A DNA stretch of 64,000 bases, from the NCBI RefSeq assembly GCF_000427965.1, contig NZ_ATZA01000002.1:62001-126000 (forward strand). Direction: 5' to 3'. The stretch is from Olivibacter sitiensis DSM 17696 (lineage in GTDB: Bacteria > Bacteroidota > Bacteroidia > Sphingobacteriales > Sphingobacteriaceae). This document shows, in pieces, positions 12,166-17,104 of the stretch (position 1 is its first letter; each line of letters begins with the position of its first letter). The notes below the pieces were generated by a model. The model searched no databases. It had not been told where the DNA came from and saw nothing but the letters and a program-made list of their open reading frames with translations. Position numbers and translations under genes: made by a program.

Positions 12166-13719
12166 CTACTTGGCAAAGGATACCGAACGCGTCTCGCGTA
12201 TGACGGTCACCTTAATCTGCCCAGGATAAGTCATTTCGGTTTGAATTCTATTGGAAATATCGGCAGCTAGAATTTCGGCCTGTGCATCATTCACCTTTTC
12301 ACTCTCCACTACTACACGTAATTCCCTACCCGCCTGTATGGCGAAAGTTTTTTCGACTCCCGGGTACGAGAGTGCTAGCTCTTCGAGTTCCTTCAAGCGT
12401 TTGATATAACTCTCTACCACCTCGCGTCTGGCACCTGGACGTGCACCTGATATGGCGTCACAAGCTTGCACGATGGGAGAAATCAGGGAAGTCATTTCAA
12501 TTTCGTCATGGTGGGCACCAATTGCATTGCACACTTCCGGATGCTCTTTATATTTTTCTGCCAGTTGCATCCCCAAAATAGCGTGTGGCAACTCTGGATT
12601 ATCGTCAGGCACCTTACCAATATCATGCAGAAGTCCGGCGCGCTTAGCAAGTTTCACATTCAGGCCCAACTCTGCAGCCATCGTGGCACAGAAGTTTGCC
12701 ACTTCACGCGAGTGCTGCAATAGATTCTGTCCATAGGAGGAACGGTAGCGCATTCGGCCTACCATGCGGATAAGTTCTGGATGCAAACCGTGAATCCCCA
12801 AGTCTATGACTGTACGCTCGCCTATCTCCACAATCTCATCTTCAATCTGTTTTTTCGTTTTCGCTACCACCTCTTCTATTCTGGCGGGATGGATACGACC
12901 ATCGGTCACCAAGCGGTGCAATGCCAAACGAGCAATCTCCCTACGCACCGGGTCGAATCCCGACAAAATGATGGCTTCTGGGGTATCGTCTACTATAATT
13001 TCTACCCCCGTGGCAGCTTCCAATGCGCGGATATTTCTACCCTCCCGGCCTATTACCCTACCTTTAATCTCATCATTTTCAATATTGAAAATAGAAACAG
13101 TATTCTCTATGGCGCTTTCGGTAGCAGTACGTTGAATGGTTTGGATAACTACTTTTTTAGCTTCTTTATTGGCCGTTAGTTTGGCTTCGTCCACAATATC
13201 CTTTATTTGGCTCATTGCCTGCGTACGAGCTTCCTCACGCAAGTTGGCCACCAATTGTTCCCTTGCTTCGCTAGCAGATAACCCAGCTATTGTCTCCAAT
13301 TGCTTGATATGTTGTAGCTTTAACTGATCTACCTCTTCCTGCTTCTTCTCATTCAGCTCTATTTGTCTTTCGAGGTTCTTACGCGTATTGTCTATTTCTT
13401 GCTTTTCCCTGTTGGCATTTTCCAATTTCTGATTAAGGGACTGTTCCTTTTGCCTTAGACTATTCTCCTTTTGACTCAGGGTATTGTTCCGCTGATTTAC
13501 CTCTTTTTCATGCTCGGCCTTCAAGTGCAAAAACTTTTCCTTAGCTTCCAGCATACGGTTCTTTTTCATCAACTCAGCCTCTTGTTCGGCTTCCTTGAGT
13601 ATTTTCTTAGCTTTATTCTGGGCGGTTATCTCCTGCTTCTTCAACAATTTACGTAGCAGATATCGCCCTACAGCAAATCCGATTACCAGACCTATTATTA
13701 TACCTATTATTGTCTCCAT
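12166..13719 (-). CDS. rny: Ribonuclease Y
   Basis: A 517-residue membrane-anchored endoribonuclease that starts mRNA decay. Domains in order: an N-terminal membrane helix ([19 protein letters not shown], residues 4-22), a long Lys/Glu/Gln coiled coil (about 25-160), a KH RNA-binding domain with [17 protein letters not shown] near 220, and an HD phosphohydrolase domain with [12 protein letters not shown] near 363 and [10 protein letters not shown] near 398. Length and order match the family. It is the last gene of the pheT / coiled-coil / zapA / rny series and is separated from zapA by a 307-bp structured spacer. Confidence 0.97.
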
Positions 13720-13757
13720 GTACTAAACTATAATTAAACGATGTTTGTGTGTAAAAA

Positions 13758-13900
13758 CCACCTGTCTATCTTTTTGCAACAGGCGATAAGATCGTACCTT
13801 TTCTAAATTCTTTTTCTAAAAAAAAACCGCAGTTAATAATAAGATTCCAATATTTCAAACTTCTAATTACAAGTTTAGCGTACTAACTATCTTCAGGTGG
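13758..13900 (-). ncRNA. Candidate structured RNA (possibly 6S-like) in the zapA-rny spacer
   Basis: The 307-bp region 13720-14026 has no plausible gene but holds nested inverted repeats: CCACCTG (13758-13764) with CAGGTGG (13894-13900), AAGAT (13788-13792) with ATCTT (13889-13893), GTAC (13794-13797) with GTAC (13880-13883), and CTAAA (13803-13807) with TTTAG (13874-13878). A closing stem, a one-sided open region of 23 nt and an inner interrupted stem are the general design of 6S RNA, which is linked to zapA in other bacteria. Strand is assumed from the neighbours. The rest of the spacer includes the palindrome TAACCGCGGTTA (13980-13991). No sequence-level 6S consensus could be tested here. 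Confidence 0.35.
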
Positions 13901-14026
13901 CCTAAAAGGCAAAATGAAGTATGTCTATTTACGCTTCTTTATATTGAAGTGTTAAGTTTAAAAATAGTGAAATCCGCATTAACCGCGGTTATGTCTTCGA
14001 AGCTCTATCTATTACAAAGAACGTAT

Positions 14027-14320
14027 TTATCTGATGCTAAAAAAGCCTGTCAGCAATTCATCTAACTCGGCAACTTTACTAGCCACTGCCGTATCCTCAG
14101 ATTGCAGCGCTCGCTCGGCTTTCAGCGCAGTCGTGGCATAATGCAATACAGCCATCGACAATAAATCTTGTTTGTCTCTCACCGCATAATTTTCCTGATA
14201 ATCTTTCAAACGGTCATTGATCACTTTTGCCGCTTGCCTGATAACCTCTTCCTCTTCCATAGCAATGGTAAGTGGATAAATTCTGTCGGCGATATTTATT
14301 TTTATGGAAATATCTCCCAT
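14027..14320 (-). CDS. zapA: Cell division protein ZapA
   Basis: A 97-residue protein that binds FtsZ and promotes filament bundling at the division ring. It starts with the typical ZapA strand SIKINIADRIYPLTI, followed by EEEEVIRQAAKVINDRLKDYQ and a C-terminal helix with ALHYATTALKAE. Length fits the family. It lies 36 bp downstream of the small coiled-coil gene and ahead of the candidate RNA and rny. Confidence 0.9.
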   Translation of the reverse strand: MGDISIKINIADRIYPLTIAMEEEEVIRQAAKVINDRLKDYQENYAVRDKQDLLSMAVLHYATTALKAERALQSEDTAVASKVAELDELLTGFFSIR

Positions 14321-14356: not shown

Positions 14357-14674
14357 CTACTTTAGCAGTTCTATGCACTTGTCAATTTCTCGCACAAAAT
14401 CGTTAATTTTTTGCTTTATGTCAAGTGTTTTTTCATTTACATCCCTTGTCACAGCAGATGTACCTTCCAATGTACGAGCCACCGCCAAGGCTTTCACCTT
14501 CTCTTCCAGCTCCTTTACTTTTCCTTTACTGGTATCCAGGGCCACTTCCAGTGCCTGGTTTTGCAATTGCAGCATATCGTTCTGTTCCTTCAATGATAAG
14601 CACAACTCGATTAATTTCGTTGTCTTATCGACCACCTTATCCAGTTGTTTAGACAGCGTAGACATGTATTGCAT
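14357..14674 (-). CDS. Small coiled-coil protein in the pheT-zapA cluster
   Basis: A 105-residue, highly charged protein predicted to be almost all helical: the heptad-like stretch DKVVDKTTKLIELCLSLKEQ continues through about residue 65 and a second helix IKQKINDFVREIDKCIELLK closes the protein. I do not recognise a named family. Its position between pheT and zapA, 36 bp from each, is shared by small coiled-coil proteins in other Bacteroidota, and a role with ZapA in division (in the manner of ZapB) is a guess. The ATG at 14665 (MSTLSK) is an alternative start three codons later. Confidence 0.75.
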   Translation of the reverse strand: MQYMSTLSKQLDKVVDKTTKLIELCLSLKEQNDMLQLQNQALEVALDTSKGKVKELEEKVKALAVARTLEGTSAVTRDVNEKTLDIKQKINDFVREIDKCIELLK

Positions 14675-14710: not shown

Positions 14711-17104
14711 CTATTTCCGTATCTCTGCTCCAGCCTGTTTTTCAAAGTTAAGAATTAATTTTTGCATCACCGCATCTATTTGTTTATCTGTGAGCGTTTT
14801 TTCATCGTCCTCCAGTATAAAGCTTAAAGCATACGATTTTTTATTTGCAGGAAGTTTTTCTCCCATATACACGTCAAACACGTTCACCTGTTTCAACAGC
14901 TTGCGTTCCGTTTTTTGGGCTATAGCTTTCAAATCCGCAAAACTCACAGACGACTCTATCAATAAGGACAAATCTCTTCTTACAGTAGGGAACTTGGATA
15001 CTTCCTGATAAGTGATTTTGTTCTTGCTAATGGCTTTAAGAATCATTGCCCAGTCAAAATCAGCATAGAACACCTCTCCTGAAACATCCGTCTTGTCTTT
15101 CGGACCCGTCGCTACCGCTCCAAAAGACACTAGCCTCTTTGCTCCCCTTACATAAGCCAAACCATATACAAGATGATCAGAATCAACTTCCTCAACTTGA
15201 AGGTTGCTTATACCCAATCGCTTTAAAATGGCATCTACCACCCCCTTGATATCGTAAAAGCTAACAGCGGCATCTGCATTGTTCCATTGCTCGGCATGCC
15301 GATTTCCAACCAAGAACAAACTTACCCTCTGTTGTTCTTCATAACCATTCTCATTCGCAAAATAGGTCTTCCCGAATTCAAAGAACTTCAGGTTGATATT
15401 GCGTCTTTTTTGGTTGTAGGATATGGCTTCCAAGCCAGAAAACAATAAGCTCTGCCTCATAGTATCTAGGTCACTGCTTAAGGGATTGATAATGCGAACT
15501 GCTGTCGATTCATCAACGTAGGCAAGCTTCGTTAGCGAGTTGCACATAATCTCGTTAAAGCCGTTGGCTATCAATAGATCGGCAATGCTATTGTTCAGAA
15601 CCTCTTTATCTGGTTTGGGTGACGTGGTGAGCGACGCCTTGATTTGCGTTTTAATTTCCACATTATTGTATCCATAGATACGCAGAATTTCTTCTATAAC
15701 ATCTATTTCTCTCGTCACATCCACCCTATAAGGCGGCACTTCTATCGAAAGCGCATCATCCTGTTCCTTTAGCACCTTGATGTCCAAGGCTTCGATGATT
15801 GCCTTAATCTCCGCAGGATCGATTTCCTTACCTATTATGGAAGTTACCCTGTCATAATGTACAGTTATGGCAAATGGCTCCATCTTTACGGGGTACACGT
15901 CGAGCACGGCCGAGCTAACGGCACCACCCGCCAACTCCTGAATGAGCAAGGCAGCCCATTTCAAGGCAATGACCGTCATATTGGGATCGGTACCGCGCTC
16001 GAAACGGAACGAAGAATCCGTCTTCAAGCCATGTCTTTTTGAAGATTTCCTTACGGTAACAGGAATAAAATAGGCACTTTCGAGAAATATTTTCGTAGTT
16101 CCTTCACTCACTCCCGAACCTTCCCCACCAAAAACACCCGCTATGCACATCGGCTCCTCGGCATTGCATATCATTAGATCTTCAGATGAAAGCTTACGTT
16201 CAACGCCATCCAGTGTCCTGAAGGGCGTCCCTTCTGAAACTCTTTTTACGACAACTTTGCCTCCAACAATCTTATCTGCATCGAAAGCATGCATAGGCTG
16301 ACCCAATGCGTGCAGCACATAGTTGGTAACATCTACAATGTTGTTGATGGGGCGTACCCCAATAGCAGCTAGTTTTTCCACCAACCAATCGGGCGAAGGC
16401 TTTACCTCCACTCCACTTATTGTAAGAGAGGAGTATCGAGGGCACAAGCCCGCATCTTCCACCTCTACTGGGATAGTGAGTCCGTCCCCGGCAACAAAAG
16501 CAGTCACATCGGGAATTTTCACATCTGCTCTCAAGTAGGCGGCCACATCCCTTGCCACACCCAGGTGAGAGGCAGCATCGGCTCTATTAGGCGTTAGACC
16601 TATTTCGAAGCAATAATCGTCTTTTACTTCAAAATACTCTTTGGCCAGAGCACCAACCGGTGCATCCACATCCAATACCATGATACCATCATGAGATTGG
16701 CCCAAACCTATCTCGTCCTCCGCACAAATCATCCCTTCGGACACCTCCCCCCTTATTTTTGATTTATTGATCTTGAAAGACTCCCCTTCCAAGGGATATA
16801 CGATGGTACCTACCGTAGCTACCACTACCTTTTGGCCTTCGGCTACGTTGGGTGCTCCACATACGATATGCAGAAGTTCTTCCCCACCTACGTCAACGGT
16901 AGTGACCCGCAGCCTGTCGGCATTCGGATGAGGCGCACATGATTTCACATGTCCAATCACCAGTCCTTCCAGGCCGCCAGGAATAGCCTGCACCAATTCC
17001 AAATGTTCCACTTCCAGGCCCACATCGGTCAGTATCAAAGCAAGCTCCTCCGGAGTTTTGTCTATTTGTATAAAATCTTTCAGCCAGTTATATGATATTT
17101 TCAT
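14711..17104 (-). CDS. pheT: Phenylalanine--tRNA ligase beta subunit
   Basis: A 797-residue subunit of the alpha2-beta2 enzyme that charges tRNA-Phe. Domains: an N-terminal EMAP-like tRNA-binding domain (VIGHVKSCAPHPNADRLRV, about residues 48-66), the B3/B4 editing region (about 210-400, with RPINNIVDVTNYVLH), the B5 domain (about 410-480) and the C-terminal FDX-ACB anticodon-binding domain (KFPTVRRDLSLLIE to the end). The length is standard. It heads the unit pheT / coiled coil / zapA / rny; a good promoter lies 56 bp upstream. pheS is not in the window. Confidence 0.98.
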   Translation of the reverse strand: MKISYNWLKDFIQIDKTPEELALILTDVGLEVEHLELVQAIPGGLEGLVIGHVKSCAPHPNADRLRVTTVDVGGEELLHIVCGAPNVAEGQKVVVATVGTIVYPLEGESFKINKSKIRGEVSEGMICAEDEIGLGQSHDGIMVLDVDAPVGALAKEYFEVKDDYCFEIGLTPNRADAASHLGVARDVAAYLRADVKIPDVTAFVAGDGLTIPVEVEDAGLCPRYSSLTISGVEVKPSPDWLVEKLAAIGVRPINNIVDVTNYVLHALGQPMHAFDADKIVGGKVVVKRVSEGTPFRTLDGVERKLSSEDLMICNAEEPMCIAGVFGGEGSGVSEGTTKIFLESAYFIPVTVRKSSKRHGLKTDSSFRFERGTDPNMTVIALKWAALLIQELAGGAVSSAVLDVYPVKMEPFAITVHYDRVTSIIGKEIDPAEIKAIIEALDIKVLKEQDDALSIEVPPYRVDVTREIDVIEEILRIYGYNNVEIKTQIKASLTTSPKPDKEVLNNSIADLLIANGFNEIMCNSLTKLAYVDESTAVRIINPLSSDLDTMRQSLLFSGLEAISYNQKRRNINLKFFEFGKTYFANENGYEEQQRVSLFLVGNRHAEQWNNADAAVSFYDIKGVVDAILKRLGISNLQVEEVDSDHLVYGLAYVRGAKRLVSFGAVATGPKDKTDVSGEVFYADFDWAMILKAISKNKITYQEVSKFPTVRRDLSLLIESSVSFADLKAIAQKTERKLLKQVNVFDVYMGEKLPANKKSYALSFILEDDEKTLTDKQIDAVMQKLILNFEKQAGAEIRK

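Follow-up and report, generated by a model that had tools for sequence, protein, structure and literature searches.

The spacer between zapA and rny in Olivibacter sitiensis, 307 bp long (13720–14026), raises the question of whether it encodes an RNA of its own, and to which class such an RNA would belong. Positions are those of the window, i.e., the whole stretch of 64,000 nucleotides which was analysed. An earlier note on this DNA had suggested a 6S RNA on the minus strand. 6S RNA is a small RNA which imitates a promoter and keeps RNA polymerase in check; the 6S RNAs hold the housekeeping polymerase and are freed by the synthesis of pRNA on the 5' strand of their bubble. From the analyses described here, the element is very probably ssrS, the 6S RNA gene, transcribed from the minus strand in the zapA-rny spacer and orthologous to 6S-Flavo; it would presumably act by the sigma-polymerase mechanism.

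The genes pheT, zapA and rny and a 105-aa ORF are all carried by the minus strand (Table 1). No ORF of at least 40 aa was detected inside the spacer, in agreement with the previous statement that it lacks a coding frame. The 105-aa ORF had no match in Pfam; a comparable small ORF upstream of zapA is also present in L001 and L002. The nearest named relatives of the ZapA protein of the window belong to Pedobacter, Mucilaginibacter and Daejeonella. A record entitled "Flavobacteriaceae bacterium PS02338" (L169) contains a ZapA which is 75% identical to the Sphingobacteriaceae ZapA of the window, and its taxon label may be wrong. Scanning for sigma-70-type promoters yielded chance-level matches only, both close to rny, including that at 13755–13727 upstream of this gene.

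Table 1. Features of the zapA-rny locus in the window, parts of the predicted 6S-type RNA, and loci of relatives with a bubble-less hairpin.
Feature	Position	Strand	Basis or remarks
pheT	14711–17104	-	PheT by Pfam
105-aa coiled-coil-like ORF	14357–14674	-	upstream of zapA, position of a zapB
zapA	14027–14320	-	Pfam ZapA, 5e-17
Small hairpin ACGUUCU...AGAGC	14002–14024	-	immediately 3' of zapA stop codon
6S-type RNA, whole structured element	13818–13998	-	R1/R2/R3 matches; MFE z -6.2 (13814–13990)
Closing stem P1, 5' strand (AACCGCGGUUAAUG)	13977–13990	-	predicted fold; helix 1 covariation
Inner closing helix, 5' strand (CGGAUUUCA), includes start of conserved UUUCACUA motif	13968–13976	-	helix 2
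AAACUU, 5' strand of bubble-bordering helix	13954–13959	-	hexamer complementarity
Central bubble, 5' strand (AACACUUCAAUAUAAA)	13938–13953	-	near-invariant; conserved columns in A1, A2, A4
Apical arm, P2 GCGU/ACGC and P3 ACUUC/GAAG	13877–13937	-	tree-aware pairs; helices 4 and 6 covary
Central bubble, 3' strand (AAACUUGUAAUUAG)	13863–13876	-	R3 alignment
AAGUUU, 3' strand of bubble-bordering helix	13857–13862	-	hexamer complementarity, sequence
Inner closing helix, 3' strand (UGGAAUCU)	13842–13849	-	covariation, sequence
Closing stem P1, 3' strand (...AUUAACUGCGGUU)	13825–13838	-	sequence, fold, covariation
T9 tract ending closing stem	13818–13826	-	sequence; T-run kept in relatives
rny	12166–13719	-	Pfam RNase_Y_N, 3e-40 (RNase Y)
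Bubble-less loci, g14			L023, L024, L027, L032, L065, L075, L081, L084
Bubble-less loci, g15			L086, L089
Bubble-less loci, g5			L123–L125
Bubble-less loci, g6			L094, L105
Bubble-less loci, g11			L126, L127
Bubble-less locus, g25			L091

When the window was scanned with Rfam, no family was found at its cut-off. The best match in the spacer was 6S-Flavo (RF01685; Weinberg et al. 2010, PMC2864571), which aligned over the full model (1–108) to minus-strand positions 13957–13857, with 28.4 bits versus a curated cut-off of 85 and an E-value of 0.057 over all 4227 families. Canonical 6S (RF00013) had no match in the spacer, its best score in the genome being 15.2 bits elsewhere (E 1.8). Of the two models which had been proposed for checking the 6S assignment, one thus matched over its own full length and below threshold, and the other found nothing. 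The 85-bit cut-off, which the window RNA does not reach, was passed by none of 60 Sphingobacteriaceae relatives searched, and 6S was absent at E ≤ 1 from an all-family scan of 11 relatives; annotation at the curated cut-off therefore overlooks the 6S RNA of this family. In an RF01685 search of the whole genome the spacer element was not among the matches listed, and independent evidence was therefore needed.

Such evidence was provided by three custom models. R1, which was derived from 15 sequences, detected the element in nearly all genomes of the family searched, mostly as the sole strong match and adjoining zapA. The hold-out family model R2, from whose training the genus of the window had been left out, gave 95.5 bits on the window and an E-value of 1.2e-15 (E-values of all three models are rough, because their calibration was short), and this was the sole strong match in the 5.05-Mb genome. 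Only sequences of other families which match RF01685 went into R3, which aligned at full length with 48.4 bits and a similarly rough genome-wide E-value of 3.8e-5, as the top match in the genome. In addition, of 37 family loci, R3 matched 33 at E ≤ 0.1, including 25 at E ≤ 0.01, with identical position throughout. The R3 matches are the direct link between the window RNA and 6S-Flavo. The element is a single chromosomal copy, since each of the three models had one strong match in the genome. R1 and R2 matches extended over 13998–13820, the R3 match over 13994–13811.

The structured RNA extends approximately from 13990 to 13818 on the minus strand. Its minimum free energy (13814–13990) had a z-score of -6.2, versus -3.6 for the plus strand, and a rod was also obtained when flanks were included (13735–13990, minus strand, z -5.4). 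The order along the rod is closing stem, inner helices, asymmetric central bubble and apical arm; in the closing stem, 13990–13977 pairs with 13838–13825, and the T9 tract follows, which is the probable 3' end or terminator of the RNA.

These results bear on the fold which had been drawn in the earlier note, a nested series of inverted repeats over 13758–13900 closed by CCACCTG/CAGGTGG. The complementary words, AAACTT/AAGTTT and others among them, are indeed present, and 13758–13900 folded alone does close with that stem. However, the z-score of this fold on the minus strand was only -1.7 (11 of 200 shuffles equalled it), and it was displaced by the rod as soon as flanks were included. The stem would join 13900–13894, which is part of the apical arm, to 13764–13758, about 55 nt beyond the T-tract, and would thus span the latter; its downstream partner occurred in just 2 of 87 full-length RNAs, namely that of the window and of one congener. 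As a conserved fold, the stem was rejected on account of partner count, z-score and flank-included folding, and that the element is a chance or genus-specific inverted repeat has next to no probability. The earlier note is right about locus, strand and identification of the RNA, for which the best genome matches of R2 and R3, covariation and the conserved position between zapA and rny speak; it is wrong about the stem, and its boundaries have to be replaced by those given above.

For a survey of conservation, the locus was retrieved via ZapA from 151 Sphingobacteriaceae genomes, and 110 downstream zapA-rny spacers were read. A full-length element was contained in 88 spacers (one, L073, reassigned by eye and backed by an R1 match), a shorter hairpin in 18 and nothing recognisable in 2, while 2 were unclear. 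Full-length elements share near-invariant GUUUCACUA, AARCUUAACRCUUCAAUAU and, on the 3' side, RAGYUU and GCGGUUUUUU. In 61 model-aligned sequences, 92% of the cells were paired and changes on both sides were seen in 34 of 46 pairs, i.e., related spacers contain the compensatory changes which had been named as a check. The covariation score was 0.388 versus 0.193 for shuffled alignments, none of which reached it; structures which had been slid along the alignment scored at most 0.108, with at most 48% pairing. In helix 1 (P1), 96% of the cells were paired, with both-sided changes in 8 of 15 pairs; in helix 2, the inner closing helix, there were 8 of 10.

Alignment A4 was fitted to the structure and is biased towards the pairs counted; therefore, a tree-aware null was also run. 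With the model-guided alignment three column pairs were significant and all three belong to the structure (13933–13879, 13919–13891 and 13910–13900); they are confined to the apical arm, because the closing stem hardly varies. A sequence-only MAFFT alignment gave one significant pair, likewise within the structure; the apical arm is not correctly aligned in it, which weakens this test. Taken together, the model-guided and tree-aware tests argue strongly for extensive compensatory change in the RNA structure. The outcome which had been set against the 6S assignment from the outset, neither a covariance-model match nor compensatory changes, did not occur.

At the border of the bubble, the hexamers AARCUU and AAGYUU, whose helix is absent from the covariance model, were fully complementary in 66% of the genomes versus 6% for shuffled hexamers, and genomes with AAGCUU on the 5' side have AAGCUU on the 3' side, too. 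A competing hairpin AAACTT/AAGTTT (13876–13857) had also been pointed out. Its sequence is real, but the pairing of AAGUUU which is conserved is that with the 5' AAACUU at 13959–13954. Roughly half of the relatives have a local 6-bp hairpin in the 3' strand, inconsistently within genera; it is therefore at most an alternative state.

The rod by which 6S RNAs in general are recognised, with a large central bubble between closing stem and apical arm, is present here with support from covariation, as are the homology in sequence and structure (R3) and the genomic position in Bacteroidia which are characteristic of 6S-Flavo. In common with the latter the window RNA has the rod, AAACUYAACRCU and RAGYUU on the 5' and 3' sides of the bubble, respectively, a T-tract after the closing stem, the location between zapA and rny, and the direct model match; AAACUUGUAAUUAG of the 3' bubble strand is aligned by R3 with AAAACUUGU of 6S-Flavo members from other families. 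It differs in the sequence of the closing stem, in the apical arm and in a score far below the Rfam cut-off. Escherichia coli ssrS and Bacillus subtilis 6S-1 (RF00013) are likewise rods in which a central bubble separates the closing stem from the apical arm, but there is no match to their sequence model. The data support a diverged member of a known RNA class which had apparently escaped annotation until now.

Could the element be a cis-acting terminator or processing hairpin, which separates the zapA and rny transcripts and has no 6S role in trans? Nine T directly follow the closing stem, and some relatives retain just a long hairpin and a T-tract at the same site. A terminator, however, would need neither the near-invariant unpaired AACRCUUCAAUAU nor a covarying apical arm of 50–60 nt; a terminator scan found no short-loop terminator, and the element is homologous to 6S-Flavo. 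This explanation is considered unlikely, though the 3' stem of a 6S RNA may well double as a terminator, which is compatible with the 6S assignment. If the element were no free RNA but a riboswitch-like part of the 5'-UTR of rny, this would be in keeping with its location immediately 5' of this gene in the same orientation and with the short spacer between T-tract and rny in many relatives. No Rfam riboswitch family was matched, however, the T-tract would cut the element off from rny, and the predicted fold is one rod which does not branch, has a bubble of the 6S type and lacks a multi-helix junction; such a UTR element appears extremely unlikely.

If the RNA is a 6S RNA, as we prefer, its mode of action can be proposed by analogy. 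We infer that it is expressed and ends at the T-tract; the minus-strand transcript would fold into the rod, with a central bubble similar to an open promoter, and would bind RNA polymerase with the housekeeping sigma factor, mainly in stationary phase, blocking access to promoters. The polymerase would then copy the 5' strand of the bubble (13953–13938), the presumed pRNA template, into a short pRNA, upon which the RNA would be released. Candidates for alternative states are the helix AAACUU/AAGUUU and, locally, the hairpin AAACUUG...AAGUUU; a rearrangement of helices at the bubble belongs to the 6S cycle (PMC8876501). 6S RNA was detected experimentally in Flavobacterium psychrophilum (PMC9723704) and, together with pRNAs, in Bacteroides thetaiotaomicron (PMC7366714), which belongs to the same phylum and to which the window RNA is likened by description. 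The match of the bubble strand to the Bacteroidetes -7 box TAnnTTTG was no better than in shuffled sequence; this counts against a 6S identity, as do the 28.4 bits versus 85 with RF01685 and the blank result with RF00013, though a promoter-like motif in this strand is not a strict criterion for 6S RNA.

Shape alone cannot discriminate between 6S RNA and Ms1 of Actinobacteria, which is structurally akin to 6S yet binds the core polymerase (PMC9130861; likened here by description). An Ms1-like RNA would be a 6S-like rod which associates with core polymerase lacking the housekeeping sigma factor and which yields no pRNA. This possibility is very unlikely in view of the homology of sequence and structure to 6S-Flavo and of the pRNAs reported for Bacteroides 6S RNA (PMC7366714); moreover, Ms1 was described from another phylum and in a different gene context.

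The gene context of the 6S-type RNA was also examined with a position-blind RF01685 search of the class Bacteroidia (295 genomes), which produced 21 matches at E ≤ 0.01. Eighteen of these, including both which exceeded the curated cut-off, are situated between zapA and rny; therefore, the arrangement zapA-6S-rny is common to the class. These matches have the rod fold, AAACUCAACRC at the 5' side, GAGUUU at the 3' side and a T-tract. L151, L152 and L153 showed weak matches (E 5e-4 to 4e-3) away from zapA and rny, which may be chance matches or relocated 6S genes. In beta- and gammaproteobacteria, ssrS is located directly 3' of zapA (PMC7641849), with ygfA/EVE as the downstream neighbour, in contrast to rny here. 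The zapA-6S neighbourhood, familiar from Proteobacteria, is now seen in Bacteroidia, and together with models R1, R2 and R3 the zapA-6S-rny locus provides a simple rule for locating 6S RNA in Sphingobacteriaceae.

The 18 genomes with a shorter hairpin possess a closing stem and a T-tract at the zapA-rny site and no bubble, mostly within about 80–140 nt. They comprise 8 of 13 members of a largely Pedobacter genus, two Mucilaginibacter, and every sampled member of four further genera (Table 1). In 16 of these genomes, which were searched, no full-length copy was found elsewhere. To judge from these sequences, the 6S core seems to have been lost repeatedly. With somewhat less than even confidence, it may be suggested that 6S RNA in Sphingobacteriaceae decayed repeatedly to a terminator-like stem, and that these free-living bacteria dispensed several times with the control of polymerase by 6S RNA. 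Since the bubble is missing in several relatives, the RNA is not indispensable, which counts against the 6S identity; the bubble-less relatives constitute a natural experiment from which the need for 6S RNA could be judged.

Two small features of the spacer lie outside the rod. Between T-tract and rny (13720–13817), the window has about 98 bp and its congeners have a similar length, versus 15–30 bp in many other genera; the genus of the window seems to have acquired extra leader sequence there. Just past the zapA stop codon, GTTCTTT recurs in most relatives and its AGAGC partner in fewer; the two can pair as a 5-bp hairpin, which, like GTTCTTT itself, could be a processing site or a promoter element.
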